From a virus: DNA of 42,115 nucleotides. This document shows, one piece after another, positions 18,797-42,021 of the stretch. Every line of letters starts with the position of its first letter. Position 1 is the first letter of the stretch. A program made the translations under genes and the position numbers. The notes below the pieces were generated by a model. The model saw only the letters and a program-made list of their open reading frames with translations. It was not told the origin of the DNA and made no database searches. Where the stretch lies: positions 1 to 42,115 of IMG/VR virus record IMGVR_UViG_3300005915_000007; one strand, written 5' to 3'.

Positions 18797-19753
18797 ATGG
18801 CTTTTTCAACAGATGACGCAACGCTTAAAACAATCGACCAACAGGACTTTTATGAAACTACACTTAAAACTGCTGTCACAGATGCAACAGATACTAATAT
18901 ATATCTGACAGCACTACCTACGCCGACTGAAGGCTTTTTGACAATAGAACCGACCTCAACCTCAAAGCGAGAGGTAATCTTCTATACTTCGTTGGGTGCT
19001 GATTATGTGACCTGTCCTTCTGCCGCTGGTGGAAGAGGAGTTTCTGGAACAGCACAGGGACACGCTGTAAGTTCTGTAGTAAGATTGAGTGACGCAAAAC
19101 AGTATTGGACACTTTTAAGAGACAGACTCTTAGACGTTCAGACAGGATGGATAAACGCAGACGAGACTTGGACTTGTGGAGCAGATGATGTAATCACAGT
19201 TCCGACCAACGCTACAGTTAAATACTCAGTAGGAGATAAGATTTTCTTACAAGATGATGGCGGAGATTTATACGGAAACGTAACAGCGGTCGCAGCCACA
19301 TCACTAACGCTAGCTTCAAACGATGACTATACGCTAGCTAGCGGCTCAACAATTACAGAACCTAAATACTCAAAGGCTGTTTCACCAGTAGGATTCCCTA
19401 CTTGGTTTGATTATACACCGACACTAGCTGGTAATGTGTCAATGTCATATACCACAACTACTGTTGATTTGGCTATGTTTATGGTAGTTGGTACAGCGGT
19501 AACTCTAATAATTCATCATCACGGAACAGTAGGTGGGACACCCAACACTAGTCTTACTGCAACTTTACCAGTAGCTTGTGCTGATGCTTTGACTTATACT
19601 GCTTGTAATATATTAGACAATGGAGTTACTGCTCTTGGTTTCGCTATAACAAATGATACTGGAGATACCTTAGATGGCAGAGTAGCAGGAGGTGGAGTGT
19701 GGACAGCTGGAACCGCCTATGTAAGAGCACAAATAACTTATAAGATAGTATAA
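18797..19753 (+). CDS. tail structural protein
   Basis: A 318-residue beta-rich protein behind AAAGGA. It starts MAFSTDDATLKTIDQQDFY and has alternating Thr/Val-rich strands throughout, with a C-terminal region (NVSMSYTTTTVDLAMFMVVG) resembling small jelly-roll or fibre tip domains. It is probably a tail or appendage component. No specific family recognised. A GNRA hairpin starts on its stop codon. Confidence 0.6.
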   Translation: MAFSTDDATLKTIDQQDFYETTLKTAVTDATDTNIYLTALPTPTEGFLTIEPTSTSKREVIFYTSLGADYVTCPSAAGGRGVSGTAQGHAVSSVVRLSDAKQYWTLLRDRLLDVQTGWINADETWTCGADDVITVPTNATVKYSVGDKIFLQDDGGDLYGNVTAVAATSLTLASNDDYTLASGSTITEPKYSKAVSPVGFPTWFDYTPTLAGNVSMSYTTTTVDLAMFMVVGTAVTLIIHHHGTVGGTPNTSLTATLPVACADALTYTACNILDNGVTALGFAITNDTGDTLDGRVAGGGVWTAGTAYVRAQITYKIV

Positions 19754-19770
19754 AAATTCGTAAGAATTTT
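19753..19770 (+). repeat. GNRA-loop hairpin, copy 1
   Basis: AAAATTC-GTAA-GAATTTT, a 7-bp stem closed by a GNRA tetraloop, beginning on the last base of the preceding stop codon. It is the only copy of the family inside the late block. The next gene has its own AAAGGA farther down. Confidence 0.75.
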
Positions 19771-19810
19771 ACATATAAATAATAACAAAGAAGCGACAGA
19801 AAGGAATATA

Positions 19811-20950
19811 ATGGCAGGTAGCATATGGCAAAAGGCAATAAACGTATTAAATCCTTTTGATGACATAACTGCGACACAATGGATAAAACAATCACAGGCA
19901 GCCCCAGGAGGATTATTAAATCCTGGTACTAGTACTCCAACAAAACCTGGAGATAACACTTATGGGCAGTACACAGTAGATAGACCTGGCTATCAACAGA
20001 GTTATGACTTTACTCCAGCTGGTTCTAGCGGAGGAACCCCGTCTACGGGCGGTAGCCCACAAGCGGCTGTTGGAGGAGGATTAAGCACCGACCAACTCAA
20101 CACTCTATACGGAGGTAGCGGGGGAAGTGGAAGTGCCGCAGCAAGTGCAAAGGCACAAAGAGATGCTGAGAATTTGGCTTTTTCAAGAGGTCAGTATGAG
20201 AAGAGATATGGTGCACAACAGGCATTTAGAGGAGAATCAAAACAGTTCGCCACAGACCAGTTCAACACCGCAAGACAGAGAGGTCAGGAACAGCGTGGAG
20301 TACTCGGAGCTGATTACGCAGAGCAACGAGGATACATGCAACAAGACCTAGGAACTGCACAACAGGGTCTAACAGGTGCTTATGGTTCAAGAGGATTAGG
20401 GGATTCATCTTTCGCACTAAAAGCACAAGCTAATGCACAGCAGTCATTCGACAGAAACTTGTCGTTCATGAATAAAGAAGAGGCTGCACAGTACAAAGAG
20501 ATAGACCAATATCTGGCTGACCTAGACAAGCAGAGAGATTTCCAGCTCAAAGAACTAACCTATGAAGACTTTGAGAGTACAGAAGACTGCAACGAAGCTA
20601 TGAAGGGCTTTGAAGTAGAGAAAGCGAACATCCAAGCACAGAGAGAACAAATACAATCTGCTGCCTCACAGGCTGCGTCTAGCATCGGTGGGATGACTAC
20701 AACCGAGGCTTACTTGAAATTTGCATCTGAGGCACAGGCGATTATGAGTGCTGCTGTGTCAGAGGCAAAGAAGAGAGAATTGCTTTCAAGCAGGTACAGA
20801 GAAGCTGGCAAACAAGACCCAGAACGAGAGGCTGACTACCACATGTCTTGGAGCCAACTGAACCCTATTGTTCAGGATGACCCATCACAAGCTGGTGCTG
20901 CCAATGACGAGATTGAGGCATTGTTCGGAATCAGACCATTTTCAGAGTAG
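19811..20950 (+). CDS. internal virion protein-like, low-complexity and helical
   Basis: A 379-residue protein with a Gly/Ser/Pro-rich first 110 residues and then long helices rich in Gln, Ala and Arg (AQRDAENLAFSRGQYEKRYG; TARQRGQEQRGVLGADYAEQ; YGSRGLGDSSFALKAQ). Such glutamine-rich, RGLGDS-containing proteins next to a very large partner are seen among ejection proteins of short-tailed phages. A role in forming the DNA exit channel is likely but inferred from context. Confidence 0.55.
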   Translation: MAGSIWQKAINVLNPFDDITATQWIKQSQAAPGGLLNPGTSTPTKPGDNTYGQYTVDRPGYQQSYDFTPAGSSGGTPSTGGSPQAAVGGGLSTDQLNTLYGGSGGSGSAAASAKAQRDAENLAFSRGQYEKRYGAQQAFRGESKQFATDQFNTARQRGQEQRGVLGADYAEQRGYMQQDLGTAQQGLTGAYGSRGLGDSSFALKAQANAQQSFDRNLSFMNKEEAAQYKEIDQYLADLDKQRDFQLKELTYEDFESTEDCNEAMKGFEVEKANIQAQREQIQSAASQAASSIGGMTTTEAYLKFASEAQAIMSAAVSEAKKRELLSSRYREAGKQDPEREADYHMSWSQLNPIVQDDPSQAGAANDEIEALFGIRPFSE

Positions 20951-20972
20951 TAATCTTAAATGAGAACCCTCA

Positions 20973-28785: not shown

Positions 28786-28817
28786 AAAAAGACTCTACTT
28801 TTCAGCGGAGTCTTTTT
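28786..28817. terminator. bidirectional intrinsic terminator
   Basis: AAAAAGACTC (28786-28795) pairs with GAGTCTTTTT (28808-28817), giving a GC-containing hairpin with an A-tract on one side and a T-tract on the other, so it can end transcription in both directions. It lies exactly between the converging late and leftward operons, and its right half encodes the last residues of the converging HNH protein. Confidence 0.88.
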
Positions 28818-29160
28818 TTAATTCATCATATATTTCATTCAAGTTTCCTAGATTGTCCTTGAATAGTTTTCGTCTGTCTAATTCTAATTCGTCAGCCCAA
28901 GCATTACCTTTAACTTGTAGTATTGTCTGTACTATGCGAGGGTCGCCAGAGAAATGGTGCTTGCAATGACAAGGTCTACATAACGGCACTAGGTTTCTCT
29001 CGTCCCACCTCAAATAAAGAGACTTCTTCTTCTCAATGTAGTGATGCATCTCTGATGTAGGTTCTCCACATACGATACATTTAGGATTTCTTGGAACTTG
29101 TATCTTTTGCAGGAGTCGGTCCATCTTGTCCTTCAGCACTCCCTTTTTGCTTTTTGCCAC
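28795..29160 (-). CDS. HNH endonuclease
   Basis: A 121-residue protein from a GTG start with an ideal AAGGAGG. It contains CIVCGEPTSEMHHYIEK...NLVPLCRPCHCKHHF, a zinc-supported HNH motif (CxxC, HH, N, CxxCH). Unlike the other HNH genes here it is the last gene of an operon and overlaps its neighbour by 80 nt. HNH proteins of this size can serve packaging or recombination; homing is also possible. Confidence 0.8.
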   Translation of the reverse strand: MAKSKKGVLKDKMDRLLQKIQVPRNPKCIVCGEPTSEMHHYIEKKKSLYLRWDERNLVPLCRPCHCKHHFSGDPRIVQTILQVKGNAWADELELDRRKLFKDNLGNLNEIYDELKKDSAEK

Positions 29161-30525: not shown

Positions 30526-30579
30526 GTCTCTTTTAATAAGGTTATTTTCTATCTAGCTAAGATGTAATCTATTCATCTT

Positions 30580-31093: not shown

Positions 31094-31115
31094 AGTGTCC
31101 TTTTAATTATATTTT

Positions 31116-31206: not shown

Positions 31207-31245
31207 ATTTTTACACACTTGTGACCGACCACTCAGGAAACCAGC

Positions 31246-31407
31246 TTATCTGTTATCGGCTGGGATTAAATCTTCCACAAATACTCTACTTCCGCAACCA
31301 TCGTCTATAAACTTTGGCTGACTATCATATTTTGTTCCACCAGAATTGGGATAGCGACACCAGCCATCTGCAAAGGAGTAATTATCGAAGAAATCTTTCC
31401 AAATCAT
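31246..31407 (-). CDS. small hypothetical protein (53 aa)
   Basis: The ATG overlaps the stop of the gene before it (ATGA) and follows AAAGGAAA. The product starts MIWKDFFDNYSFADGWCRYP and has a Gly/Asp/Cys-rich middle (KFIDDGCGSRVF). No family recognised. Coupling and ribosome site support it. Confidence 0.6.
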   Translation of the reverse strand: MIWKDFFDNYSFADGWCRYPNSGGTKYDSQPKFIDDGCGSRVFVEDLIPADNR

Positions 31408-31570: not shown

Positions 31571-31588
31571 GAAATTCTTACGAATTTC
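31571..31588 (-). repeat. GNRA-loop hairpin, copy 2
   Basis: On the leftward RNA GAAATTC-GTAA-GAATTTC, immediately after the stop codon of the zincin gene and before the ribosome site of the 47-aa gene. Confidence 0.8.
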
Positions 31589-31980
31589 TATTTTAGTTTC
31601 ATATACTTACTTATTAAGCTAGTTAGTTTATCTCCCCAGATTGCGTGGTGTCCCGTCTTGTCTCCCATTTTCTCATTCCAGTCGTGAGTAAGAACGTGTG
31701 CTATTTCGTGTAAGAATAAAGCGTCATTTCCCTTCGGACACAATATGGTCTTGATACTATACATACACAATCCATCAGTGCTGTCTTTGACTTTCCAATC
31801 CTCGATACCTTCTTCTTTTAGAATATGCTCCCAACTTATTTTTTTATGCTTTGATAAGTAATCCAAAACATTCACATCTGCATCTAGGTCAGACATCTTG
31901 TGCCCTAATATTTCCTCCGCCTTATAATCTGCTAGATGATAAAACTTTATCTCTTTCATTATCTCTTGCTTCTTACTCAT
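31588..31980 (-). CDS. zinc metalloprotease-like protein (SprT/WLM type)
   Basis: A 130-residue protein with HEIAHVLTHDW (HExxH zincin motif) and a downstream TGHHAIWGDKLTSLI, which supplies the third zinc ligand in the manner of SprT-like and related minimal metallopeptidases. The cysteines ahead of it (LCMYSIKTILCPKG) are unusual. It may process a host or phage protein. It begins with a Lys/Glu-rich helix. ATG behind AAGGAG. Confidence 0.7.
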   Translation of the reverse strand: MSKKQEIMKEIKFYHLADYKAEEILGHKMSDLDADVNVLDYLSKHKKISWEHILKEEGIEDWKVKDSTDGLCMYSIKTILCPKGNDALFLHEIAHVLTHDWNEKMGDKTGHHAIWGDKLTSLISKYMKLK

Positions 31981-32003
31981 CTTTTACTCCTTAGATTAAA
32001 TTG

Positions 32004-32087
32004 TGTGAGGTTTGAGGTTATCGCCCCTCACAAGGTTGGTCGGGTGGTATTTCCGCCCCACCCATAGCGGTTCAGACTGTTGAGGGG
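32004..32087 (-). promoter_or_regulatory. structured leader with alternative pairings
   Basis: TGTGAGG (32004-32010) pairs with CCTCACA (32026-32032); GGGTGG (32042-32047) pairs with CCACCC (32058-32063). CCCCTCA (32024-32030) can instead pair with TGAGGGG (32081-32087), excluding the first stem. The element fills the gap before the zincin gene, so it could switch its translation. No ligand or class recognised. Confidence 0.4.
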
Positions 32088-32093
32088 AGTGGA

Positions 32094-32372
32094 TTAGTCC
32101 TCTTCTTCCCCTGGGTCGTCTGAAAAGTCGTCACCTAGTATTCCTGTTATGCCGAGTAATTCCCCAGCATTGTGTATCAGAGCTTGTTCGTTGTTGGTGG
32201 TGAGTTCCAACAACTGGTCGGTTGCGTGGACCACATTCACCAGCGTAGCAGATACTTCGTACCCGTGTGGTGAGGTGGTCATCATCATATGGCAGGAGTC
32301 GGATAGCGTGGTCAAGAGGTCGTGTATGGCTTGTATGTCTCGCATATCCGCCTGTAAGACATCACTCAGCAT
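32094..32372 (-). CDS. hypothetical protein (92 aa), acidic
   Basis: Starts behind AAGG with a short overlap with the gene before it. Helical (MRDIQAIHDLLTTLSDSCHM; LVNVVHATDQLLELTTNNEQ) with an acidic tail (DDFSDDPGEEED). Its GC content is near 50%, higher than neighbouring leftward genes, as is that of the next two genes, suggesting joint transfer. No family recognised. Confidence 0.6.
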   Translation of the reverse strand: MLSDVLQADMRDIQAIHDLLTTLSDSCHMMMTTSPHGYEVSATLVNVVHATDQLLELTTNNEQALIHNAGELLGITGILGDDFSDDPGEEED

Positions 32373-32701
32373 AACCTTGCCTCTCCTGAAGCGTCCAGTT
32401 TGATTTGCGAACTTCTCTCCCTGACAGCTTCCAGAGTTCCTGTTATAGTCGGAAACAGAACCTCCTTTGTACCATCGTCATACGACCAGCTACCATCTTC
32501 TCTTTCCTCGATTACGAGGGAGTATGTGACCTGGAGTTTTCCGTAGTCTACGATGGTTATTATGAGCTTTTGCACTCTTTTCACCTCTCTTTGCTTCGTA
32601 GAGTTGTTCACGAGTCGGATTGCCTGTCCTGTGGATTCTGTGACAAAGTGCTTCGCAAGTTCTACAACGACCTTCTGCATTGAATATTTCTGACTTGCCA
32701 T
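32366..32701 (-). CDS. hypothetical protein (about 111 aa)
   Basis: ATG 32701 is chosen because AAAGGA lies just upstream; an upstream in-frame start at 32740 has none. The product is alpha/beta-like (KYSMQKVVVELAKHFVTEST; VQKLIITIVDYGKLQVTYSL; an acidic strand VIEEREDGSWSYDDG). Its first two thirds overlap the HNH gene in another frame, which is unusual for two sensible proteins. No family recognised. Confidence 0.5.
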   Translation of the reverse strand: MASQKYSMQKVVVELAKHFVTESTGQAIRLVNNSTKQREVKRVQKLIITIVDYGKLQVTYSLVIEEREDGSWSYDDGTKEVLFPTITGTLEAVRERSSQIKLDASGEARLC

Positions 32702-32831
32702 TATCCTTTCTGTTCTGAATATGGTGTAATACCATACCACGAAAACTCAGTGGTCTCTTACAAACTGCACACCTTCCGTTCTGGCTCTCGAAAACGAACT
32801 TCTTGGTTCCCTTCGACCAAGCCGTAAGCAA
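32490..32831 (-). CDS. HNH endonuclease
   Basis: A 113-residue protein from a TTG start behind a G-rich ribosome site. CAVCKRPLSFRGMVLHHIQN...CRTCEALCHRIHRTGNPT is a clear HNH motif with zinc cysteines; a basic tail follows. The last 210 nt overlap the gene at 32366-32701. Likely a free-standing homing endonuclease; it has its own promoter-like sequence at 32943-32970. Confidence 0.75.
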   Translation of the reverse strand: MLTAWSKGTKKFVFESQNGRCAVCKRPLSFRGMVLHHIQNRKDNGKSEIFNAEGRCRTCEALCHRIHRTGNPTREQLYEAKRGEKSAKAHNNHRRLRKTPGHILPRNRGKRRW

Positions 32832-32942
32832 TCCCCCCTTTGTCTAGGAAAATAAAAAGAGAGCTAGATAATACTAGACTCCCTAAAGCCCTCACTTTTC
32901 TGTTTGATTTTTATGTCGTTTAACATAAATACCTTATTTAAT

Positions 32943-32970
32943 ATTCTATATCTTTATTTCTTTTTGTCAA
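32943..32970 (-). promoter_or_regulatory. promoter-like sequence before the HNH gene
   Basis: Leftward TTGACA (32965-32970), 16-nt spacer, TAGAAT (32943-32948). The leader to the HNH start is about 105 nt. The hexamer array lies about 40 bp upstream of the -35 box. Confidence 0.6.
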
Positions 32971-33011
32971 GCTCTTATAGCGATACACTCGATGTACCGC
33001 TTATAAAATCA

Positions 33012-33143
33012 CGACCCCGACCTCGACCTCGACCTCGACCCCGACCTCGACCTCGACCACGACCACGACCCCGACCACGACCCCGACCTCGACCTCGACC
33101 ACGACCTCGACCACGACCCCGACCACGACCACGACCCCGACCA
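33012..33143. repeat. 22 tandem hexamers CGACCN
   Basis: Twenty-two units of CGACCN without interruption, where N is C, T or A but never G, and the other five positions never change. N is the third codon base of Pro in the rightward Arg-Pro frame and also of Arg in the leftward Gly-Arg frame. The leftward frame has no start after its nearest stop. It may be a coding repeat, a protein-binding array or an origin-like element. Confidence 0.9.
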
Positions 33144-33179
33144 GTCTGTGTTATGGATGTTAATTAAGAACATTCTGCC

Positions 33180-33494
33180 CTACCATTTCACTGGATAAAT
33201 TGCCTCAACTGATTGTCGCATAACCATAGCCTTTTGCTTTGGCAAATCTTGTGCATCAGATGGAGAAGCGTTTGAGTAATCTCCCGTGTCGAATACTATC
33301 TGTGCCTCGTCTAGTTCAATGAAGGTCGGGTTCACTGACTTTACTTTTCCAAAATAGATGTACCTAGCACACTGAAACGCCCACTTTTTGTCTACTAAGT
33401 CACCCATTCCGTTCACTTCAATCGGCTCAAAATCATCTCCTAGCTGGTCTTTTATCTTTTCTAAAGTCTCGTCACTCACATCAATCATAGGCAT
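33180..33494 (-). CDS. hypothetical protein (104 aa)
   Basis: Starts behind AAGGAGG with a 10-nt overlap with the gene before. Begins with an acidic helix (DETLEKIKDQLGDDFEP), then a beta-rich region (KWAFQCARYIYFGKVKSVNP; FIELDEAQIVFDTGD) and a QAMVM-like end (KQKAMVMRQSVEAIYPVKW). It looks like a compact domain of unknown function. Confidence 0.6.
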   Translation of the reverse strand: MPMIDVSDETLEKIKDQLGDDFEPIEVNGMGDLVDKKWAFQCARYIYFGKVKSVNPTFIELDEAQIVFDTGDYSNASPSDAQDLPKQKAMVMRQSVEAIYPVKW

Positions 33495-33727
33495 AATGCC
33501 TCCTTATTATTTTCTAATTTATTTAATCTCTCATCTATTCTATGTATTTGTTCGTAGATATCGTTGTATCTTTTTCTGAACTCATCGTTAATCTTCTCCT
33601 CTATGTAAGTATCGGAGGGGTTTTCTATGTTCTGGTGTTCTTTCTTGTGTTTCTTTACATATTTTCTATGGTTATCAGCTAAGTTGTTTACTCTGTCTAA
33701 TAATCTTTTGAAGTCTAGTTCTTTCAT
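33485..33727 (-). CDS. coiled-coil protein (80 aa)
   Basis: Almost entirely helical and charged (RLLDRVNNLADNHRKYVKKH; NDIYEQIHRIDERLNKLE). AAAGGAG precedes the ATG, and a GNRA hairpin lies directly upstream of that site. Function unknown. Confidence 0.6.
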   Translation of the reverse strand: MKELDFKRLLDRVNNLADNHRKYVKKHKKEHQNIENPSDTYIEEKINDEFRKRYNDIYEQIHRIDERLNKLENNKEALCL

Positions 33728-33728
33728 A

Positions 33729-34010
33729 TTACTCCTTTGGGAAATCCTTGCGGATTTCTTTAATACAGTGATTCCAACCAGTCATTTCGTCTTCATTGTA
33801 AATATTCGGGAACTTGTCCACTTCTTTTGGAATACACTTCTCTATTCTCTCCCTCTCTTTTTTTAGTTCTTGGGAGATAGTTTTAGATATGAAGTCTTTA
33901 ATTTCGTCGTATCTTGCACTTGTAAAGTTATTGACAAAACCTACCTCGTTTCTGCCATATAAGTCGTCAAAGTCTTTATCAAAGTCTTTCTCCCACTTAG
34001 TATTTTTCAT
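33729..34010 (-). CDS. hypothetical protein (93 aa)
   Basis: ATG 34010 fits GAGGA 9 nt upstream; an in-frame ATG at 34028 overlaps the HNH gene more deeply. Soluble, acidic N-terminus (KWEKDFDKDFDDLYGRNE) and a helical Lys/Glu-rich middle. Its last codons (KEIRKDFP) are the 5' side and loop of a GNRA hairpin, so RNA and protein constraints overlap there. Confidence 0.55.
   Translation of the reverse strand: MKNTKWEKDFDKDFDDLYGRNEVGFVNNFTSARYDEIKDFISKTISQELKKERERIEKCIPKEVDKFPNIYNEDEMTGWNHCIKEIRKDFPKE
33743..33760 (-). repeat. GNRA-loop hairpin, copy 3
   Basis: On the leftward RNA GAAATCC-GCAA-GGATTTC. It lies inside the last codons of the gene 33729-34010, right before the AAAGGAG of the next gene. 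Confidence 0.8.
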
Positions 34011-34410
34011 TGTAAGTTCCTCTCCCATCTTTAAAAGCTCTAATAGTTTTTGTGTTCCAAAATAAGTTTTGGATAGCTTGTTTCCTTTTCTCTGGTGTTA
34101 AATCATATCTTCTGTGGCAGGAACGACACATCCTTTGATAGTTCCCTCTGTGCTTCTCGTGCTTTTTCCCAATCTTCAGACACCATTCGAAAGTATTGCT
34201 CTTTTGTTCACACTTTGGGTTTTCACAATGTTTTGGTTTGCCGTAGTGTGTGTTAAGCCATTGATGTACCGAAGTTCTGTGTGTTGGTTTGTCTTTCCAG
34301 TTTGGTGCTTTATCTCCCTTTACCCCCCTCAGGCTCTGCCAATAACACTCTCTGGAACAGAACTTGTTGGTAGCTAGCTTGGTAGGTTTTCCACATATTT
34401 TGCATTTCAT
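33997..34410 (-). CDS. HNH endonuclease with zinc ribbon, leaderless
   Basis: A 137-residue protein: N-terminal ribbon CKICGKP...FCSRECYW, a GDKAPNWKD motif shared with the HNH protein at 29342, then HCENPKCEQKSNTFEWCLKI...RMCRSCHRRYD, an HNH fold in which CxxCH ends the motif. A perfect promoter ends 6 nt before the ATG and there is no ribosome site, so transcription should start at or next to the ATG. Likely a selfish homing nuclease. Confidence 0.8.
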   Translation of the reverse strand: MKCKICGKPTKLATNKFCSRECYWQSLRGVKGDKAPNWKDKPTHRTSVHQWLNTHYGKPKHCENPKCEQKSNTFEWCLKIGKKHEKHRGNYQRMCRSCHRRYDLTPEKRKQAIQNLFWNTKTIRAFKDGRGTYNEKY

Positions 34411-34416
34411 ATTACC

Positions 34417-34445
34417 ATTATATATCTATGTCTATCAAATGTCAA
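34417..34445 (-). promoter_or_regulatory. perfect consensus promoter
   Basis: Leftward TTGACA (34440-34445), 17-nt spacer, TATAAT (34417-34422). The expected start point is about 34410, the A of the HNH start codon, which predicts a leaderless message. Confidence 0.85.
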
Positions 34446-34463
34446 GCTCCCATTGTTTGTCTG

Positions 34464-34805
34464 TCATATTCTCTCCCATTGCTCTTTCATTAGCTTGTCA
34501 ACCATAATATAAACATCAGACTTTAACCCCTCTTTGTTCACCTTGTAGGTGCTGTGCTTGTCTTGGTTCACTTCTAAGATGCGTTCTACATCGCGGAGGA
34601 GTTTGTCCTCCCAGTTTTTGGTTGTCATTTTGTTTCCTCTTTTAGTTGTTTTGTTGTCTGTCATAATATGTTCCTCTGGTTCGTCTGCTTCTATTTCTTC
34701 GTAGTGGAACTGACCGCTAGTATCGCATAGGCAACGGTCTTCTACCTTATTTTTACCGAAGTGTGGTTTCCCACAAAGGTTACAGACTTGTACTACTCTT
34801 TTCAT
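34464..34805 (-). CDS. zinc-ribbon protein (113 aa)
   Basis: Starts behind AAGGAAC. N-terminal CNLCGKPHF...RCLCD is a zinc site; a charged linker and a helical C-terminal half follow (WEDKLLRDVERILEVNQDKH; VYIMVDKLMKEQWERI). It resembles the two paralogous proteins upstream in plan only. Function unknown. Confidence 0.6.
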   Translation of the reverse strand: MKRVVQVCNLCGKPHFGKNKVEDRCLCDTSGQFHYEEIEADEPEEHIMTDNKTTKRGNKMTTKNWEDKLLRDVERILEVNQDKHSTYKVNKEGLKSDVYIMVDKLMKEQWERI

Positions 34806-34819
34806 AATATGTTCCTTAA

Positions 34820-35308
34820 TTAAAGTGTTTCTAAAAACTTCTCTAAGTCTTCGTCTTGCACCATATCATCACGTCCAAACTTACCATCTAAATAACCCTT
34901 GTCATACAGCCACTCTGCTATCTTCTCTGCTTTGGTTTCTTTGGGTTCGATATTGTAAGTCCAAGACTCGCACTGTTTACCGTTAGATTCACATTTTTTG
35001 AAACATTCCCCACAAGCGAATTTCTCGTTTTTATGGTTGTAATGCAAATCTACTCCTGATACGCCACAATAATAACACGATATTGGCTCCCCTTCTTTGT
35101 CTTTGGTTTCTTTGGCTAATTTAGTCATCTTGCTCTGCTCATCGTTTGATGCCTGAATGGCTTTGTCAACACACTCTTTGAAGGTGTCTGTGAGCATTAT
35201 GCTCTGGGTGTGTTCCTCTTGGTGCTTGCTAAAAGCGTCTATCAATTCGTTCAATGTAGATACCATTTGTCCAAAGTCTTCTATAAATGCTCCTGTTATT
35301 CTTTTCAT
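34820..35308 (-). CDS. zinc-ribbon protein (162 aa), paralogue of 35345-35791
   Basis: Begins MKRITGAFIEDF, then LNELIDAFSKHQEEHTQSI, a central two-CxxC ribbon (CYYCG...CGECFKKC) and ends KAEKIAEWLYDKGYL...LEKFLETL. The N-terminal, middle and C-terminal parts align with the neighbouring 148-aa protein, so they arose by duplication. It has more cysteines than its paralogue. AAAGGAAAG precedes the ATG. Function unknown; probably an early accessory protein. Confidence 0.65.
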   Translation of the reverse strand: MKRITGAFIEDFGQMVSTLNELIDAFSKHQEEHTQSIMLTDTFKECVDKAIQASNDEQSKMTKLAKETKDKEGEPISCYYCGVSGVDLHYNHKNEKFACGECFKKCESNGKQCESWTYNIEPKETKAEKIAEWLYDKGYLDGKFGRDDMVQDEDLEKFLETL

Positions 35309-35327
35309 AACTTTCCTTTTAATTAGG

Positions 35328-35345
35328 GAAATACTTGCGTATTTC
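35328..35345 (-). repeat. GNRA-loop hairpin, copy 4
   Basis: On the leftward RNA GAAATAC-GCAA-GTATTTC, starting at the stop codon of 35345-35791 and followed by the AAAAGGAAAG of the next gene. Confidence 0.85.
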
Positions 35346-35791
35346 TAAAGTGTTTCTATTACTTCTAAGAACTCCTTAAGCATAGCTCCAAAATGTGGTT
35401 CATCTAATTCCATATCCCTATAATCGTGAGCATAGTCTTTGATTAGCTCTGCTATCTTGTCTGCTTTGGGTTTATACTTCGATGCAAATTCAATACCGCA
35501 TAACTTGCAATATGGCGATATGTTCAAATCAAATTCATGTTTACACTCTTTGGTTTCTTTGGGTTGGTCTGTTCCCCTACCAGATGAAAATATCTTGCCC
35601 TCTATTTCTGGTGCGTACACAGTTTTGATAGCGTCTAATAGTCCTTCGTGTTCCTCTTGGTGACTGTTAGCGAAGTCAACTAATTCGTTTGTTTTCTCGA
35701 CAACTCCTCGTAAGACCATATCTTTTGATTCAAATGTGTCTTTCATAATCTCCACGGGCTGATAGTCGTCTAGTTTGGTTATCTTTTTCAT
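35345..35791 (-). CDS. zinc-ribbon protein (148 aa), paralogue of 34820-35308
   Basis: Begins MKKITKLDDYQPVE, then TNELVDFANSHQEEHEGLL, a ribbon C...H...CKLCG and an end KADKIAELIKDYAHD...LKEFLEVIETL. These segments match the adjacent paralogue in order. GNRA hairpins stand on both sides of the gene. AAGGAG precedes the ATG. Function unknown. Confidence 0.65.
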   Translation of the reverse strand: MKKITKLDDYQPVEIMKDTFESKDMVLRGVVEKTNELVDFANSHQEEHEGLLDAIKTVYAPEIEGKIFSSGRGTDQPKETKECKHEFDLNISPYCKLCGIEFASKYKPKADKIAELIKDYAHDYRDMELDEPHFGAMLKEFLEVIETL

Positions 35792-35808
35792 ATATCTCCT
35801 TGATTAGG

Positions 35809-35826
35809 GAAATGCTTACGCATTTC
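35809..35826 (-). repeat. GNRA-loop hairpin, copy 5
   Basis: On the leftward RNA GAAATGC-GTAA-GCATTTC. The stop codon of the 37-aa gene is inside the loop and its last codons form the 5' arm; the ribosome site of the next gene follows. Confidence 0.85.
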
Positions 35827-35929
35827 TAAATACTTCCTCTATAATTTTATCAACCTCATCACACGCTTTTTTGTCGCCTTCCCAATGCATCAGGAACTCT
35901 CGTATTGCTTTTTTTAGTTTCTCTTTCAT
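35816..35929 (-). CDS. tiny helical protein (37 aa)
   Basis: A perfect AGGAGG precedes the ATG. The product (MKEKLKKAIREFLMHWEGDK...) is a charged helix ending EEVFRNA. The last codons and the stop lie in a GNRA hairpin. No family recognised. Confidence 0.6.
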   Translation of the reverse strand: MKEKLKKAIREFLMHWEGDKKACDEVDKIIEEVFRNA

Positions 35930-35952
35930 CTTGTCCTCCTAGTTAATTAGGG

Positions 35953-35970
35953 GAGATTCTTGCGAATCTC
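35953..35970 (-). repeat. GNRA-loop hairpin, copy 6
   Basis: On the leftward RNA GAGATTC-GCAA-GAATCTC, between cloverleaf RNA A and the 37-aa gene. The A-to-G change on one arm is matched by T-to-C on the other. Confidence 0.85.
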
Positions 35971-35976
35971 TGTTAG

Positions 35977-36121
35977 TTGATTAAGTGGTGTTGGTAAGCG
36001 ATACTCTGTTGATGTCGGTCACTCTCCGACCAGCTCGTTGTGTTTTTTTGGCATCAGGAAGTTAAAACCTGCTTATTACCCATTGGGTCGCTGTACTAGC
36101 TTACCAACACCATTCAATCAA
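35977..36121 (-). ncRNA. candidate structured RNA A, four-way junction
   Basis: 35977-35999 pairs with 36099-36121 over 23 bp with one A-C mismatch and one G-U. Inside it are three hairpins: GTCGG/CCGAC (36014-36030), CAGG/CCTG (36055-36071) and ACCC/GGGT (36078-36088). No ORF of note or ribosome site occurs. The layout is a cloverleaf larger than a tRNA, with a T-arm-sized hairpin but no T-loop sequence. The strand is taken from the operon. Confidence 0.6.
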
Positions 36122-36134
36122 TTAGTTTCTCCCC

Positions 36135-36264
36135 AGAGGGTAGAGGCAGAGTGGTGGAGGCAAGGTTTGACTTGCAGACAATTCACCTTGGAAATTAGGC
36201 ATTGTTTAATTTTCCTATGTAACGGCTCACAGTCCGCCACTCCACCATTCCACCCCTACCCTTC
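36135..36264 (-). ncRNA. candidate structured RNA B, tRNA-like cloverleaf
   Basis: Leftward, an outer helix GGGTAG/CTACCC encloses an 8-bp stem TGGTGGAG/CTCCACCA (36152-36159 with 36240-36247), a 4-bp D-arm-sized hairpin GCGG/CCGT, a hairpin GGAAAATT/AATTTCC with one bulge, and GCAAG-TCAAAC-CTTGC directly followed by the closing acceptor-like strand. That junction is exactly tRNA-like, but the loop has 6 nt, the anticodon arm is not standard, and the total is too long. It is either a degenerate tRNA or a tRNA mimic. Confidence 0.5.
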
Positions 36265-36287
36265 TGTTTGTTGTGGGAGTATTTTAG

Positions 36288-36307
36288 GGAAATTCTTGCG
36301 AATTTCC
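36288..36307 (-). repeat. GNRA-loop hairpin, copy 7
   Basis: On the leftward RNA GGAAATTC-GCAA-GAATTTCC, 8 bp, between the SSB-like gene and RNA B. Together with copy 6 it brackets the two structured RNAs. Confidence 0.85.
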
Positions 36308-36327
36308 TACCCTCCTTATTAAGTCTT

Positions 36328-36822
36328 CTATTCAAATATCTCGTCTACATCTATCTCTTCTTCGTCTACCTGTGAGTCCTGTGCTTCTTCTTTGCTACCA
36401 AAGGTTTCTGTTCCTTCGTCTGTAGCACCGAATAGCTTCTCTAGGTCTATGTCCGCTTCTTTGATTTTATCTTTTTCTTCAGAAGTTATCTCTGATTTCT
36501 TGGGGCTGGGAGTCACTGTGTAATAACTGCCCTGTTCCTCTGTTCTTGTGATAGTCAAATCATATTGGGTGGGGTCTCCCCAATCTTCTTCATTGGCTAG
36601 TTTCTTGACTTCTCTATAAATCATTACTCCGCCCTTAAAGCCTTTGATTTCCCCGTCTTCTCGGTTGATAACTGTCCACGCAAATCGTTCGTTCGTCTCT
36701 CCCTTGTATTCCTCTTGGAAGTGAATCGGGGCAGACGCTAATCTAATTTTAACTTTATCTCCTTTGCCCGACAATCTTAAATAAGGGCTGTTGCTTTTGG
36801 GTTCGTATTCATAGTCTTTCAT
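36328..36822 (-). CDS. single-stranded DNA-binding protein-like
   Basis: A 164-residue protein. The first 105 residues are a beta-rich domain (YLRLSGKGDKVKIRLASAPI; ERFAWTVINREDGEIKGFKG; YDLTITRTEEQGSYYTV) and the end is a strongly acidic tail closing in DEEEIDVDEIFE, the hallmark of SSB proteins that recruit partners through an acidic C-terminus. It is coupled to the nuclease gene by a 14-nt overlap. Family not certain; T4 gp32-like or OB-fold SSB analogue. Confidence 0.6.
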   Translation of the reverse strand: MKDYEYEPKSNSPYLRLSGKGDKVKIRLASAPIHFQEEYKGETNERFAWTVINREDGEIKGFKGGVMIYREVKKLANEEDWGDPTQYDLTITRTEEQGSYYTVTPSPKKSEITSEEKDKIKEADIDLEKLFGATDEGTETFGSKEEAQDSQVDEEEIDVDEIFE

Positions 36823-37498
36823 CTTTCTCCTTTGCTTTTAATGTTGCCTCTTTACTTGTTAGATTTATATAATCGGGGTAACTTGCATACTTGGCGTTCT
36901 TCTGCCATTTGTATCGGGGTTCAAACTCTGGCACAATACCCGTCTGGAAGGCTTCAGATGCCTCTCTAATGACTTTATCTACGCTTTCTGAGTAATCGGC
37001 TGTCTCTTTGACAAAGTGCTCTATGCGGTAATCGTCTGCCGAAACATAAACTATATGAAATCGGGGTGCTTTCATCGCCATAGCGTAAAAACAGGCTTGT
37101 AGGATAACTTGGGGGTCTGCATCTCCTTGAGTTTCTATTCTTTTGAACTTAGAGTTCTTGACTGATTTAACTTCGTAGGGCTCGTCTTTGAATATGAAAT
37201 CGACAACTCCGACTGTGTTCTTGTATTCAACTTCCTTTTGAACATCAGTTATTCTGAGTTTCATCTTTAGAATGTCGATTACTTTCTCTTCTACATCTTT
37301 CCCTCTGGCGAATAAGCAGAGAACATAGTCATCAACTTCGGGAGTTTCTATTCCCATTAAGTGTAAAACTTGCCATTGCAAAGCCCAGCCTAGTCTTGAG
37401 GCTGATAGCTTTCCCGAACTTACGTGCTTCTCTCGTTCTTTGTCGTTGAGTTCACGTATGGTGTCTTTGAATACTTTGTCTAGTGAATGAATAATCAT
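36809..37498 (-). CDS. PD-(D/E)XK nuclease
   Basis: ATG 37498 has AAAGGAG at ideal distance; a longer reading from 37570 has none. The 229-residue protein shows VGVVDFIFKDEPYEVKSVKN (the D...ExK core), QVILQACFYAMAM (the QxxxY motif), and a C-terminal tail, as in Cas4/RecB-like phage exonucleases that prepare DNA ends for recombination. An N-terminal SASRLGWALQWQVLH gives the helical part typical of the family. It precedes the SSB-like gene, as in many recombination pairs. Confidence 0.8.
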   Translation of the reverse strand: MIIHSLDKVFKDTIRELNDKEREKHVSSGKLSASRLGWALQWQVLHLMGIETPEVDDYVLCLFARGKDVEEKVIDILKMKLRITDVQKEVEYKNTVGVVDFIFKDEPYEVKSVKNSKFKRIETQGDADPQVILQACFYAMAMKAPRFHIVYVSADDYRIEHFVKETADYSESVDKVIREASEAFQTGIVPEFEPRYKWQKNAKYASYPDYINLTSKEATLKAKEKDERL

Positions 37499-37716
37499 TT
37501 GTCTCCTTTGGGCAATTCTTGCGAATTGCTTTGTACAACCCTTACACCTTTTACCGAATCCAAAAACCAAGTTCTCGTCTTGGTAGGAAAGTTGTAGTTT
37601 GTATCGAAACGCATTCCTGCCTTTAGTAGCTCCATTTCTGCTTTGTCCAGGTGTTCCATTTGTTTCTTTGTTCTGTTTTTAAATATTATATCCACATTAA
37701 CGTTTGCTTTTTTCAT
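37495..37716 (-). CDS. hypothetical protein (73 aa)
   Basis: Coupled to both neighbours by overlap. MKKANVNVDIIFKNRTKK, a short helix and FDTNYNFPTKTRTWFLDSV suggest a ferredoxin-like fold. Its last codons encode a GNRA hairpin just before the nuclease ribosome site. No family recognised. Confidence 0.55.
   Translation of the reverse strand: MKKANVNVDIIFKNRTKKQMEHLDKAEMELLKAGMRFDTNYNFPTKTRTWFLDSVKGVRVVQSNSQELPKGDK
37512..37529 (-). repeat. GNRA-loop hairpin, copy 8
   Basis: On the leftward RNA GCAATTC-GCAA-GAATTGC, inside the end of the 73-aa gene and directly before AAAGGAG of the nuclease gene. The stem change from GAAATTC is compensated. Confidence 0.8.
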
Positions 37717-38745: not shown

Positions 38746-39056
38746 TTGCTTCCTTTGTTTCTCTTCTCAAACGCCTCTTCTTTAAGTCTCATCTTTTTCT
38801 CTTGTTCGTTCTCTAGCGGGAATGGTCTGACATTTACAGACCTCCTGTATACATCCGTTAGCCCCAACTCGTCATTGTTTTGTAGTTCTATCTTTCCACT
38901 TTTAAGCTTATTAATTACATCTTCTGTGTCCGCAGTTAAAAAACCAACAACAATTCCACCATCTCTTTCATCTAACATCCAATATGTTGGCGATGATTCA
39001 TGCTTGGTTTTCCAATCTCTTGAACTAATCATTTTTTTTGCCCAAACTTGATACAT
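38742..39056 (-). CDS. hypothetical protein (104 aa)
   Basis: AAGGAG precedes the ATG, which overlaps the initiator gene by 32 nt. The product has SSPTYWMLDERDGGIVVGFL and a Lys/Glu-rich helical end. No family recognised; coupling suggests a replication-related role. Confidence 0.55.
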   Translation of the reverse strand: MYQVWAKKMISSRDWKTKHESSPTYWMLDERDGGIVVGFLTADTEDVINKLKSGKIELQNNDELGLTDVYRRSVNVRPFPLENEQEKKMRLKEEAFEKRNKGSK

Positions 39057-39696
39057 TGTTCTCCTTGTTTAGTTTGTGTAATCTTAAATATTCTGGTATT
39101 TCAACATCTCCTACTTCTATCTTTTGTTTTTCGTCTGAAAACTCGGTAGCCCTTTTCATCCAATTCTCTAGGAAAGCTTTGTAATTTTTATAACGCTTAC
39201 CATTCATATTTAACCAATTAATTGCTCTTTCTATTTCCTCTTCTAAGTGGGTATTTGGGTATTTCTTTTCAAAGTATGTTTTATCTTTGGTGGGTATGGA
39301 AACAAGCCATTGTTTCCCATACTCTTCTTTATTCTTTACTTCTTTACTTCTTGTTAGAGTGTCATCTTGTTGTCTGCTTGTTGTCATCTTGTTGTCATCG
39401 TTGTTGTTACCGACCTGTTGATAACTCTCCCAATTCGATACTATATAGGTACTATATTTGTTGTTACTCCTTAGTGTCATCATTTTGGCTTTTACAAGCC
39501 TCATAGAAGCACCATAGGTTGTTGTTGGCTTCAAACCGCAATGTTCAGCCAACTGAAATCTGCCACCCTCCCAAACTCCTGTTTTTCTATCTACCAACAA
39601 CAGCAATGTTATAAACACCTTGAATGCGTTGGTATCTCTTTTCAGGAAATCGTTGTCTATGATTTTGCGGTGAAGTTTCACCCAACCATTTCTCAT
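39025..39696 (-). CDS. replication initiator / replisome organiser-like protein
   Basis: ATG 39696 has TTAGGAG upstream. The 223-residue protein starts WVKLHRKIIDNDFLKRDTNA and FKVFITLLLLVDRKTGVWEG, then a winged-helix-like LAEHCGLKPTTTYGASMRLV, an Asn/Gln/Thr-rich linker and a C-terminal helical domain (YKNYKAFLENWMKRATEF). This is the pattern of phage replisome organisers that bind the origin and recruit host helicase. With no helicase or polymerase of its own, the phage would depend on it. The gene has an attenuator-like leader. Confidence 0.65.
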   Translation of the reverse strand: MRNGWVKLHRKIIDNDFLKRDTNAFKVFITLLLLVDRKTGVWEGGRFQLAEHCGLKPTTTYGASMRLVKAKMMTLRSNNKYSTYIVSNWESYQQVGNNNDDNKMTTSRQQDDTLTRSKEVKNKEEYGKQWLVSIPTKDKTYFEKKYPNTHLEEEIERAINWLNMNGKRYKNYKAFLENWMKRATEFSDEKQKIEVGDVEIPEYLRLHKLNKENNVSSLGKKND

Positions 39697-39715
39697 TAGT
39701 TCTCCTAATAAAATA

Positions 39716-39797
39716 CCCCAGAGAAATCGGTTGAGGATTGGCTCTGGGGTAAACATATTTAGCTAAACGTGTTTTCATAAAAAATCCCCAACCGATT
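39716..39797 (-). promoter_or_regulatory. attenuator-like leader with competing helices
   Basis: The first 15 nt expected on the transcript, AATCGGTTGGGGATT (39797-39783), are complementary over all 15 positions (one G-U) to 39739-39725. That second strand lies in the loop of an 8-bp hairpin CCCCAGAG/CTCTGGGG (39716-39723 with 39742-39749). Forming one fold would disturb the other. A short ORF starts at 39778 inside the leader (MKTRLAKYVYP...). Confidence 0.6.
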
Positions 39798-39832: not shown

Positions 39833-39852
39833 TAGAATATACTGTTGATAAC

Positions 39853-40203: not shown

Positions 40204-40211
40204 TTTGCTCC

Positions 40212-40709
40212 CTAATTTATAAACTTTAGATATTCTTTATTTTTAAACATAGTCCAATGATTAAAGCCCGATTTCGTATCTCTCAACAGTTTAGCATATC
40301 TTATATTTTCCTCTGGTATCTGCATTTGTTCTATGGTTATTCCTCGTGTTGGCATAATTCTTATTTGGCATAGCCCGACACTCATTCCATACTCTCCACC
40401 ACCTTGCCAAAATGTCAGATGTCCGTCTCCAATTGCCATTGTGTCCTCGCCTCTGTTCTCTGCTTTACAAATTGCCCTCATTGTATTTGCTTCATCGCCA
40501 AAGTATTTCACAAACAAGTCTTGTTCTGGCTCTGGGTTGATAAATGACAACTCCTCGAACTTTATCGCCGGGGGTTCTTCTTCAATTACAAATTCGTCAG
40601 AATTTGCTAAATCTCTATTCCTCATATCATTCATAGTCTCTGCCACTCCCCCACAAAAAGAGGCAACAAGTGGAATAATACAGATTTTAATTATTAATTT
40701 AGGAATCAT
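40212..40709 (-). CDS. secreted or membrane-anchored lysozyme/transglycosylase-like hydrolase
   Basis: A 165-residue protein with an N-terminal hydrophobic segment (IPKLIIKICIIPLVASFCGG), an acidic linker and an SLT/lysozyme-like domain: probable catalytic Glu in ICKAENRGED, the SVGLCQIR segment, and the IRYAKLLRDTKSGFNHWTMF end. It would cut the glycan strands of peptidoglycan. Lying in the early block, it may act on entry, on superinfection or at lysis; I cannot decide. Confidence 0.65.
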   Translation of the reverse strand: MIPKLIIKICIIPLVASFCGGVAETMNDMRNRDLANSDEFVIEEEPPAIKFEELSFINPEPEQDLFVKYFGDEANTMRAICKAENRGEDTMAIGDGHLTFWQGGGEYGMSVGLCQIRIMPTRGITIEQMQIPEENIRYAKLLRDTKSGFNHWTMFKNKEYLKFIN

Positions 40710-40912
40710 TTTGTTTCTTTATTAGTTATTTGATATGCGTTTTTATAATCTTTAACATTAAAATCTTCAATATCATAAACATTGCTACCGATTAAAACAT
40801 CAACCTGCCATTCTTCAAGTTTTATACTATTGTTCGCAAACAATAAACGAACTGCTCCCGTCTTGTCTTGGAAAACTTCTATTTGATTTTTGAATTTATC
40901 TTTTAATTTCAT
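40706..40912 (-). CDS. small hypothetical protein (68 aa)
   Basis: Overlaps both neighbours by 4 nt. Beta-rich, with QIEVFQDKTGAVRLLFANNS and a Lys-rich C-terminus. No family recognised. Its AGGAG lies inside the end of the gene upstream. Confidence 0.55.
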   Translation of the reverse strand: MKLKDKFKNQIEVFQDKTGAVRLLFANNSIKLEEWQVDVLIGSNVYDIEDFNVKDYKNAYQITNKETK

Positions 40913-41118
40913 TTTTCTCCTCTTTTAAATTCTGTTAAAAATAATTGATACTCTGTTTTACACTTTGGACAAATCAAAAGAAACAACTCTGGCTTTTTTA
41001 TGTTCTCAAACGTATTCTCTGGGCTGATGTTTATATGCTCTTGGCAATCTGATTTAGGACATTTCAGATATGAAAATGATGGTTTCATATTTATTGGTAA
41101 CCATTTCTTTCTACTCAT
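40909..41118 (-). CDS. small zinc-ribbon protein (69 aa)
   Basis: CPKSDC and CPKCKTEYQ form a ribbon; the middle is hydrophobic (PELFLLI). AAGGAGG lies upstream and the start overlaps the previous stop by ATGA. Function unknown. Confidence 0.65.
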   Translation of the reverse strand: MSRKKWLPINMKPSFSYLKCPKSDCQEHINISPENTFENIKKPELFLLICPKCKTEYQLFLTEFKRGEK

Positions 41119-41288
41119 TCTACCTCCTTACCAGAATCGAGCACAACACCTGACAGCTGTCGAAGAACGGTTTCGTTTTCAGAGTTGGCATATCTCATTA
41201 ATGCGTCAAGGTTTCTTTGAGTGATTGCCCACCCCTTCCCGTCAATGATGAACATTTTATTTTCCCCGTCTAGTTTTATTCTCTTCAT
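41115..41288 (-). CDS. small hypothetical protein (57 aa)
   Basis: AGAGGAA precedes the ATG. MKRIKLDGENKMFIIDGKGW, then ITQRNLDALMRYANSENETV: a strand pair and a helix that may bind DNA. ATGA overlap with the following zinc-ribbon gene. No family recognised. Confidence 0.6.
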   Translation of the reverse strand: MKRIKLDGENKMFIIDGKGWAITQRNLDALMRYANSENETVLRQLSGVVLDSGKEVE

Positions 41289-41304
41289 TTTTCCTCTCTT
41301 TCTA

Positions 41305-41322
41305 AGAATGCGTGAGCATTCT
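41305..41322. repeat. GNRA-loop hairpin, copy 9 (opposite polarity)
   Basis: AGAATGC-GTGA-GCATTCT as read on the plus strand. The surrounding genes are leftward, where the loop would read TCAC, so this is the only copy whose GNRA loop is on the strand opposite to the local genes. It starts at the stop codon of the gene 41321-41554. Confidence 0.7.
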
Positions 41323-41554
41323 ATATTATATTTCTATTAACTAAATCCATATACAAAACAACAACACCCGCAACAATAGCTAATATCTTAATCCATTGAA
41401 TAAACGATATCCTCACACGATAACTTCTAAGGCGTCTTTTGGGCATTGACTCAACAGGGACACCAATTCTTTCGTCTTTGCCTAAAAACACCCTTCTATC
41501 TTTGAAGCGTCTGTCTACGCTTTCGACTCTTTTGCCGTTGTAAAATACTCTCAT
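41321..41554 (-). CDS. small basic membrane protein (77 aa)
   Basis: The first gene of the leftward block. Basic N-terminal half (RVESVDRRFKDRRVFLGKDE; PKRRLRSYRVR) and a C-terminal membrane helix (ILAIVAGVVVLYMDLV). No ribosome site is visible before the ATG. An early membrane protein at this position may alter the host envelope. No family recognised. Confidence 0.55.
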   Translation of the reverse strand: MRVFYNGKRVESVDRRFKDRRVFLGKDERIGVPVESMPKRRLRSYRVRISFIQWIKILAIVAGVVVLYMDLVNRNII

Positions 41555-41569
41555 ATGAAGCGTGATATA

Positions 41570-41626
41570 TTAAATTGTTAAAGGGCTTGACAGGTGCGTT
41601 GTTTGCTGATATTGTTTAATTGTTAA
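41570..41626. promoter_or_regulatory. paired operator-like boxes around the rightward promoter
   Basis: TTAAATTGTTAA (41570-41581) and TTTAATTGTTAA (41615-41626) differ at one position and lie 45 bp apart, one before the -35 and one at the end of the -10 box. A separate inverted repeat, CAGGTGC (41591-41597) with GCACCTG (41638-41644), overlaps the spacer. Confidence 0.55.
41587..41615 (+). promoter_or_regulatory. rightward promoter
   Basis: TTGACA (41587-41592), 17-nt spacer, TATTGT (41610-41615). It points to the 59-aa gene and, past a terminator, to the terminase operon. It faces the leftward promoter 52 bp away. Confidence 0.6.
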
Positions 41627-41666
41627 CCAGTTGTCCAGCACCTGCCACTTTCTGTGTCCTACGGAC

Positions 41667-41695
41667 AGTATAGCAAGGATAATGCTAGTTGTCAA
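41667..41695 (-). promoter_or_regulatory. leftward early promoter
   Basis: Leftward TTGACA (41690-41695), 17-nt spacer, TATACT (41667-41672). It should drive the leftward block starting with the gene at 41554, and its transcript runs through the operator boxes and the facing promoter. Confidence 0.8.
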
Positions 41696-41761
41696 TACTA
41701 AAGCATACTAGATACCAATATATATAGTGTAGGAGTACATAAAACAAAACAAAAGATAATC

Positions 41762-41798
41762 GGAGAGGTACAAATGCGTAAGCATTTGCTAATAAATG
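41762..41798 (+). promoter_or_regulatory. Shine-Dalgarno, GNRA hairpin (copy 10) and start codon
   Basis: GGAGAGG (41762-41768) is followed by CAAATGC-GTAA-GCATTTG (41771-41788) and then ATG (41796). The linear distance is too long for initiation, but with the hairpin closed the effective gap is about 9 nt. Alternatively the ATG inside the hairpin (41774) starts a 15-codon leader peptide (MRKHLLINVNKVHNR). Confidence 0.6.
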
Positions 41799-41975
41799 TT
41801 AATAAAGTTCACAACAGATGAAATAAGTACACTTGCCACCACCAAAGACGGTAACTATCAACTACCTATAAAGATGCTAATGCCTCAGGCCGAGATTAAG
41901 GCCAGAGCAGAGATTGTAAACTTGCCGATTGACTGTTCATATAAGATAACCATTGAACCAATACCCAACGAGTAA
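41796..41975 (+). CDS. small protein of the control region (59 aa)
   Basis: The only gene between the rightward promoter and a terminator. The product (MLIKFTTDEISTLATTKDGN..., ending ITIEPIPNE) is beta-rich with KMLMPQAEIKARAEIVNLPI in the middle. It has no clear helix-turn-helix. Its place suggests a regulator, perhaps of early-to-late passage; no family recognised. Confidence 0.6.
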   Translation: MLIKFTTDEISTLATTKDGNYQLPIKMLMPQAEIKARAEIVNLPIDCSYKITIEPIPNE

Positions 41976-41990
41976 ACGCCGTTGGTTTTT
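41965..41990 (+). terminator. intrinsic terminator before the terminase operon
   Basis: CCAACG (41965-41970) pairs with CGTTGG (41980-41985), followed by TTTTT. The stem overlaps the last codons and the stop of the 59-aa gene. Late transcription from the control region must read through it. Confidence 0.75.
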
Positions 41991-42003
41991 ATTATTAAAA
42001 GTA

Positions 42004-42021
42004 AGAATGCGTAAGCATTCT
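42004..42021 (+). repeat. GNRA-loop hairpin, copy 11
   Basis: AGAATGC-GTAA-GCATTCT, between the terminator and the small terminase start. The stem is the same as in copy 9 but the loop is GTAA. Confidence 0.85.

Follow-up and report, generated by a model that had tools for sequence, protein, structure and literature searches.

The window, by which we mean the whole 42,115-base stretch of viral DNA analyzed here, ends with a repeat of its first 80 bases, and this 80-bp terminal repeat indicates a complete, circularly permuted tailed-phage genome. The late block, comprising terminase, portal, capsid and structural genes, is on the plus strand and extends from about 41.8 kb across the junction to 28.8 kb. 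The early block, on the minus strand, begins at about 41.55 kb, reaches 28.8 kb and includes SSB-like, Cas4-like exonuclease and DnaD/O-like genes. Named kin are only remote, the best TerL match being that of ANMV-1 virus (31%), and a structural protein matched that of an uncultured phage from Manatee Spring at 33%. Strong matches to sigma-70-type promoters (10 to 12 of 12) are found on the minus strand at 41695, 39832, 38404, 34445, 32970 and 29935, and their distribution across the early operon suggests a bacterial host. Several HNH endonuclease genes are present in the early block (28795-29160, 29342-29887 and 32490-32831), together with a pair of paralogues located side by side (35345-35791 and 34820-35308), each having one of the hairpins described below ahead of it; in relative G2 a portion of the 35345-35791 gene is present in diverged form. 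A hexamer tandem repeat, GGTCG[T/G/A], occupies 33012-33142 (about 22 copies, reading CGACCN on the plus strand) and is also found in relative G5 (L138, about 1176-1230).

Short hairpins having a perfect stem of exactly 7 bp (8 bp in one copy) and a loop of four bases are dispersed in this genome (Table 1). The first-pass annotation had listed eleven of them, and all eleven were found in the window sequence, although one start (33743) was off, the copy being that at 33741. A twelfth member having the loop GTCA (40589) had been missed. The loop is GNRA on the coding strand in ten of the eleven, as had been claimed, with 41305 the exception. The window contains 11 GNRA hairpins with stems of at least 7 bp versus a mean of 0.26 and a maximum of 2 in 100 first-order Markov sequences, and none with a stem of exactly 6 bp. 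For tetraloops of any type with stems of at least 7 bp, 16 were seen versus 3.6 expected. A scan with the fixed core AT-N-C ... G-N-AT, complementary arms and loops of 3 to 8 bases returned the eleven, the 40589 hairpin (stem 7) and a single stem-6 match attributable to chance (0.9 expected). The twelve elements constitute one family with the consensus A-NNNATNC-GNNA-GNATNNN-C, in which the loop is usually of the GNRA type.

Table 1 Hairpins of the family and features of the candidate origin region in the window
Feature	Position	Strand	Remark
Hairpin AAAATTC[GTAA]GAATTTT	19753..19770	+	First base is last A of TAA stop, gene 18797-19753
Hairpin GAAATTC[GTAA]GAATTTC	31571..31588	-	TAG stop overlapped
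Hairpin GAAATCC[GCAA]GGATTTC	33741..33758	-	Within last codons (EIRKDFPKE), then AAAGGAG
Hairpin GAAATAC[GCAA]GTATTTC	35328..35345	-	TAG stop overlapped
Hairpin GAAATGC[GTAA]GCATTTC	35809..35826	-	Loop holds stop TAA
Hairpin GAGATTC[GCAA]GAATCTC	35953..35970	-	Behind structured non-coding stretch
Hairpin GGAAATTC[GCAA]GAATTTCC, 8 bp	36288..36307	-	Ahead of structured non-coding stretch
Hairpin GCAATTC[GCAA]GAATTGC	37512..37529	-	In last codons, gene 37495-37716
Hairpin CAAATTC[GTCA]GAATTTG, twelfth member	40589..40606	+	Antisense within minus-strand gene 40212-40709
Hairpin AGAATGC[GTGA]GCATTCT	41305..41322	+	Polarity antisense to surrounding early genes; TAG stop of 41321-41554 ends within hairpin
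Hairpin CAAATGC[GTAA]GCATTTG	41771..41788	+	Between GGAGAGG and ATG of ORF 41796-41975
Hairpin AGAATGC[GTAA]GCATTCT	42004..42021	+	8 nt ahead of terminase-small-subunit-like gene start
Iteron-like tandem repeat, 11-bp unit TGTCAGCTTGT, 4.3 copies	39360..39407	+	Candidate replication origin
DnaD/O-like replication initiator or helicase-loader gene	39025..39756	-	phrog_2514, phrog_345; contains the iterons

The relatives compared were G1 (L136 and L137), G2 (L013), G3 (L134) and G5 (L138 and L139). In 20 copies from the window, G3 and G5 all 140 base pairs are Watson-Crick and none is G·U, a result that is partly by construction because the scan demanded perfect stems. When one or two defects were tolerated in C[GNRA]G hairpins, a relaxed scan of the same three genomes gave no imperfect family members, only a few defective matches that lacked the family core and were at the chance level. 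The arms covary at pairs 1, 2, 3 and 6, with all four pair types occurring at pair 6, whereas pairs 4, 5 and 7 are invariant. Among 19 copies (15 distinct) both-sided changes occur in four of the seven pairs (21 cells versus a shuffled mean of 4.6). The true partners have a covariation score of 0.58, and slid partners reach at most 0.12. For the distinct variable pairs the lack of G·U has a P of about 0.001 at a wobble rate of 10% and about 0.04 at 5%, these rates being assumed values and the copies not being independent.

Gene gaps hold eight of the twelve hairpins wholly or mostly, and a ninth (35809) straddles a stop codon when judged by reading frame (the automated map has it as mostly non-coding); 33741, 37512 and 40589 are within coding sequence. 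By chance, such placement would arise at only 7.6% of genome positions (16% in the early half), so that 8-16% was expected, and the proposed association with gene boundaries was upheld, most copies being located between a stop codon and a ribosome site. The end of the stop codon forms the first base or two of the hairpin at 19753, 31571, 35328 and 41305. The copies at 33741 and 37512 adjoin the ribosome site of the following gene, and those at 41771 and 42004 are 7-8 nt ahead of start codons. Copies cluster in the early operon, where many gene boundaries are without a hairpin, and the late genes, 28 kb in all, contain a single copy. The terminase-small-subunit-like gene (139 aa, from 42030 onward across the junction) has no recognizable ribosome site in either the window or G3, and a hairpin is found there instead. 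We considered the 41771 hairpin as the carrier of a start codon, but the start codon within it is gone in G3 and thus the hairpin is not kept to encode a start.

Several structured RNAs are predicted near hairpins. The stretch of about 280 nt between 36288 and 35953 (35986-36265, minus strand) is non-coding and would give two RNAs with closing stems of about 22 bp. This region folds with -141 kcal/mol (z -9.2) and is neither a tRNA nor an Rfam family, permissive Rfam matches in 35.9-36.35 kb being judged chance; no Rfam match above the gathering score was found anywhere in the window. Another strong fold without an Rfam match (-55 kcal/mol in 150 nt) is located between small genes at 31101-31250 (minus strand). 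The idea that long gene-enclosing stems are general in the window was rejected, as these were not above shuffles, the non-coding RNAs excepted. In L134 two successive small early genes (15904-16113 and 16153-16493) each lie within complementary 5' and 3' untranslated arms of about 24 bp (-37.8 and -37.4 kcal/mol). The two genes are separated by family hairpins, and the enclosing arms are reminiscent of rRNA processing stems. L138 (2765-2817, 3086-3146 and 3161-3235) has two stem-loops with the common motifs GCTAGATAGA...TCTATCTAAGTGAGAT after the G5 hairpins plus a tRNA-Ala(TGC) with its CCA encoded, and the first motif begins again at window position 30570.

Over their shared stretch, relative G1 does not differ from the window, and G2 is about 99.6% identical to it. 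G3 (TerL 84% identical to that of the window) covers the part of the genome near 41.8-42.1 kb and has four hairpins. Its orthologue of 41771 is CAAATCC[GCAA]GGATTTG and that of 42004 is AGAATCC[GCAA]GGATTCT. At both sites the inner G-C pair of the window is C-G in G3, with both arms altered, alongside a T/C difference in the loop, and the outer, site-specific pairs are unchanged. The claim that stem changes are matched on the other arm was confirmed both within the window and between phages. As a swap between G-C and C-G cannot pass through a wobble pair, we counted it in favor of a DNA-level role. The further copies in G3 are at 16131 (five-base loop) and 16500.

G5 is more distant (identities of 32% for the MCP and of 59% and 76% for two early proteins) and also has four hairpins. 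Three of its copies are at corresponding positions and are identical to those of the window: 141 corresponds to 33741, 2728 to 31571 and 21862 to 19753. The surroundings of the 19753 copy are 88% identical over 51 nt, whereas the protein encoded up to that point shows only 31% identity. The 31571 hairpin is found in a 24-nt unit with CCCCAAG that is also present in G5 at 2728 beside different genes, and the genes flanking the unit GAAATTCGTAAGAATTTCCCCAAG differ between the window and G5. Downstream of the 33741 hairpin is the 33485 gene, and downstream of the G5 copy at 141 is another gene, the 33485 homologue being farther on. Such shifts in gene content are compatible with the sites doubling as recombination borders.

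The other relatives (about 380 kb, some being fragments without early genes) gave no match to the ten-copy window model, and distant relatives (TerL 21-49%, MCP 31-47%, G8 and three Manatee Spring genomes) gave no copies with either model used. Single weak matches in L023 and L045 were judged chance, and hairpins in the RNA-phage-like contigs L015, L016 and L018 were unrelated to the family. A host-wide repeat was likewise not supported, since among the matches listed from genome contigs there were scattered singles, several of these being SufS-like codons or terminators, although a copy in the host may exist. In related phages that carry the family boundary enrichment was not absent, and there was no case of one arm changing alone.

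The hairpins have a polarity. In all 16 copies having the GNRA strand on the gene strand an A precedes the stem, and in most of them a C follows (flanking bases of the 8-bp copy were taken at its outer edge). When scored on these flanks only, the window copies 40589 and 41305 and the G3 copies 16131 and 16500 prefer the strand antisense to the genes, by 3-13 bits each. A covariance model (R2) trained on the ten window copies in gene sense, with the test copies held out, matched 40589 (30.7 bits, E 2e-4) and 41305 (20.3 bits, E 0.07, a weak match) on the plus strand only and the G3 copies 16131 (19.6 bits, E 0.09, also weak) and 16500 (23.2 bits, E 0.014) on the antisense strand only. Taken together with their conserved placement in two lineages having different genes, we take these four antisense copies as real; in G3, therefore, polarity is opposite to the gene in two of four copies.

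Along the window the 19753 copy is on the plus strand, those from 31571 to 37512 are all on the minus strand and those from 40589 to 42004 are all on the plus strand. There are thus two sign changes around the circle (P 0.015 for random labels, although divergent transcription alone also gives few), one in 37.5-40.6 kb and the other in 19.8-31.6 kb. The first interval holds the iteron-like repeats within the DnaD/O-like gene, and the lambda origin has the same arrangement, its iterons lying within the initiator gene. From the repeats we infer a replication origin near 39.4 kb. If the iterons are the origin, the polarity is that of the lagging-strand template in 12 of 12 copies versus that of gene sense in 10 of 12, with the 19753 copy, 22.4 kb rightward of the iterons, slightly beyond the half-way point of 21.0 kb. 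The GC skew flips near 41.4 kb, tracking transcription, rather than at 39.4 kb.

Given these data, we tentatively favor a reading in which the hairpins are functional and are recognized on single-stranded DNA, and rate it as having a little less than an even chance. The recognized folded strand would be the lagging-strand template, exposed as forks leave the putative origin near 39.4 kb, and such exposure would make the copies face one way to the left of the origin and the opposite way to its right. A phage or host factor acting on the folded single strand in priming, annealing or recombination might read the C-GNNA-G tip plus the flanking A and C, leaving arm sequence mostly free provided that pairing is exact. 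Gene gaps would be used because coding sequence leaves little room. The transcribed copies would also fold in the mRNA, where they may have a secondary effect, and the DNA and mRNA roles are not mutually exclusive.

Recognition on single-stranded DNA is favored because R2 places four copies antisense to genes and because the interval of the polarity switch holds the iterons. Stable DNA tetraloops include the classes d(cGNNAg) and d(cGNABg), into which we take the non-GNRA loops GTCA and GCAC to fall. The lack of G·U pairs among 140, together with the lack of imperfect copies, suits DNA better than RNA, and frequent G-T pairs were read by the REP authors as a sign of RNA function (PMC3733652). 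Weighing against it, only two window copies and two G3 copies separate replication polarity from gene sense, the GC skew does not flip at the origin that the repeats suggest, and the early-operon clustering and stop-to-ribosome-site placement also suit RNA. Among possible partners that act on single-stranded DNA, a Y1 transposase and a reverse transcriptase are both absent.

The chief alternative, which we consider quite possible if on the doubtful side, is that these are boundary hairpins of polycistronic phage mRNA that would signal where genes end, protect the transcript or direct its processing, or serve as binding sites of a translational regulator near the next ribosome site. The placement data suit this proposal, as does the fact that ten of the twelve copies have GNRA on the coding strand, among them every one of the 10 clear copies located outside 40.5-41.4 kb. 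The stems fold as RNA (-3.3 to -8.6 kcal/mol), a structured non-coding RNA lies between 36288 and 35953, the G5 tRNA-Ala is downstream of one hairpin, and a hairpin is in place at the terminase-small-subunit-like start, which is without a clear ribosome site. However, the antisense polarity of four copies and the total lack of G·U pairs argue against an mRNA role, as do the many early boundaries without a hairpin and weak, AU-rich stems with no U-tract downstream. Of the RNA element put forward in the first-pass annotation, the real family, the boundary enrichment and the matched arms were supported, whereas action as RNA is no more than possible, sense polarity not being universal; its suggestion of protein docking is possible, although no known RNA-binding partner was found. 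Antisense (rightward) transcription across 40.5-41.7 kb would reinstate the RNA reading.

It is distinctly unlikely that the hairpins are REP-like mobile or recombination linkers, that is, a palindrome spread across the genome by a single-stranded DNA process, tolerated between genes, lending short homology to gene exchange and playing no part in expression today. The patchy distribution (relatives nearer in MCP than G5 gave no family members in the parts that were sequenced) and the changes in gene content beside hairpins would fit, and elements that target the lagging-strand template are expected to have orientation tied to replication (PMC6006769). However, the identity of orthologous sites where adjacent proteins are only 31% identical hints at a function, neither an empty site nor a target duplication was seen, and neither the transposase nor the tag of REPs was found in these phages. 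A double-stranded operator or palindromic protein-binding site could account for perfect dyads of fixed geometry, three of them near the divergent promoter region, but is very improbable given the polar center (G..A), the ordered orientation, the freedom of pair 6 and the location of most copies away from predicted promoters. Intrinsic terminators were rejected because the stems are weak and AU-rich with no T-run, two copies matching a loose terminator scan weakly.

If the hairpins are read on single-stranded DNA, a double-stranded DNA phage lineage might mark its lagging-strand template with dispersed, perfect, loop-specific hairpins oriented away from the origin and read by a phage or host protein in priming or strand exchange, a more specific proposal that we regard as unlikely. 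Short hairpin repeats of phages are usually interpreted as RNA signals or terminators, and we know of no tailed phage described as using dispersed oriented hairpins in such a way. The strict pairing, together with a slightly better fit of the orientation to replication than to transcription, points to a possible role on single-stranded DNA. The family provides a small set of sites where the DNA and RNA readings predict opposites, and it also marks points at which gene content differs between related phages.

Several known systems resemble the family in part. The boxB hairpins of lambda-type nut sites are small and adopt a GNRA-type fold, whereas here the copies are many and their orientation is not strictly tied to transcription; no upstream motif of the boxA kind was shared, whether over the 6 nt that precede the 16 aligned copies or over the 12 nt listed. 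The PeSL cassettes of T4-type phages are stem-loops between early genes that act as terminators, come with promoters and are sites of gene-content exchange, whereas these hairpins lack a tied promoter or U-tract. The REP/RAYT systems share short, mostly extragenic palindromes at many sites (here 12 copies, eight in gaps), and the group 3 REPs are perfect palindromes with loops of 3-4 nt (PMC8266576). The present family differs in being phage-borne, with 4-12 copies per genome or fragment and no G-T pairs, and in lacking the GTAG tag, its 5' flanks varying except for the constant A at -1. The Y1 transposase TnpA_REP (PF01797) was absent from the window, G1, G3 and G5 in searches whose positive controls worked, but it could be host-encoded.

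The ESAS elements of Cluster K mycobacteriophages are likewise dispersed at gene starts, consist of inverted repeats whose consensus varies by subcluster and are of unknown function (PMC3203893). The likeness to SAS/ESAS is in the phage habitat and gene-start placement. ESAS have imperfect 17-bp arms, a spacer of 4-13 bp and the 13-bp start tag GGGATAGGAGCCC (PMC3203893), whereas our hairpins have perfect 7-bp arms, a fixed loop of 4 nt and no constant downstream tag. Another structural parallel is the DGR target of BPP-1, a DNA hairpin or cruciform by a stop codon that has a stem of 7-10 bp and a 4-nt purine-type loop, and in which stem structure matters over stem sequence and loop sequence matters (PMC3240598). 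DGR hairpins have GC-rich stems and GRNA loops, lie beside a variable region and depend on a reverse transcriptase, whereas those described here are AT-rich and dispersed, and with the reverse transcriptase (PF00078) absent we rejected DGR membership. Nevertheless, the DGR targets demonstrate that a DNA hairpin by a stop codon, with a free stem and a constrained purine loop, can be a functional phage site.
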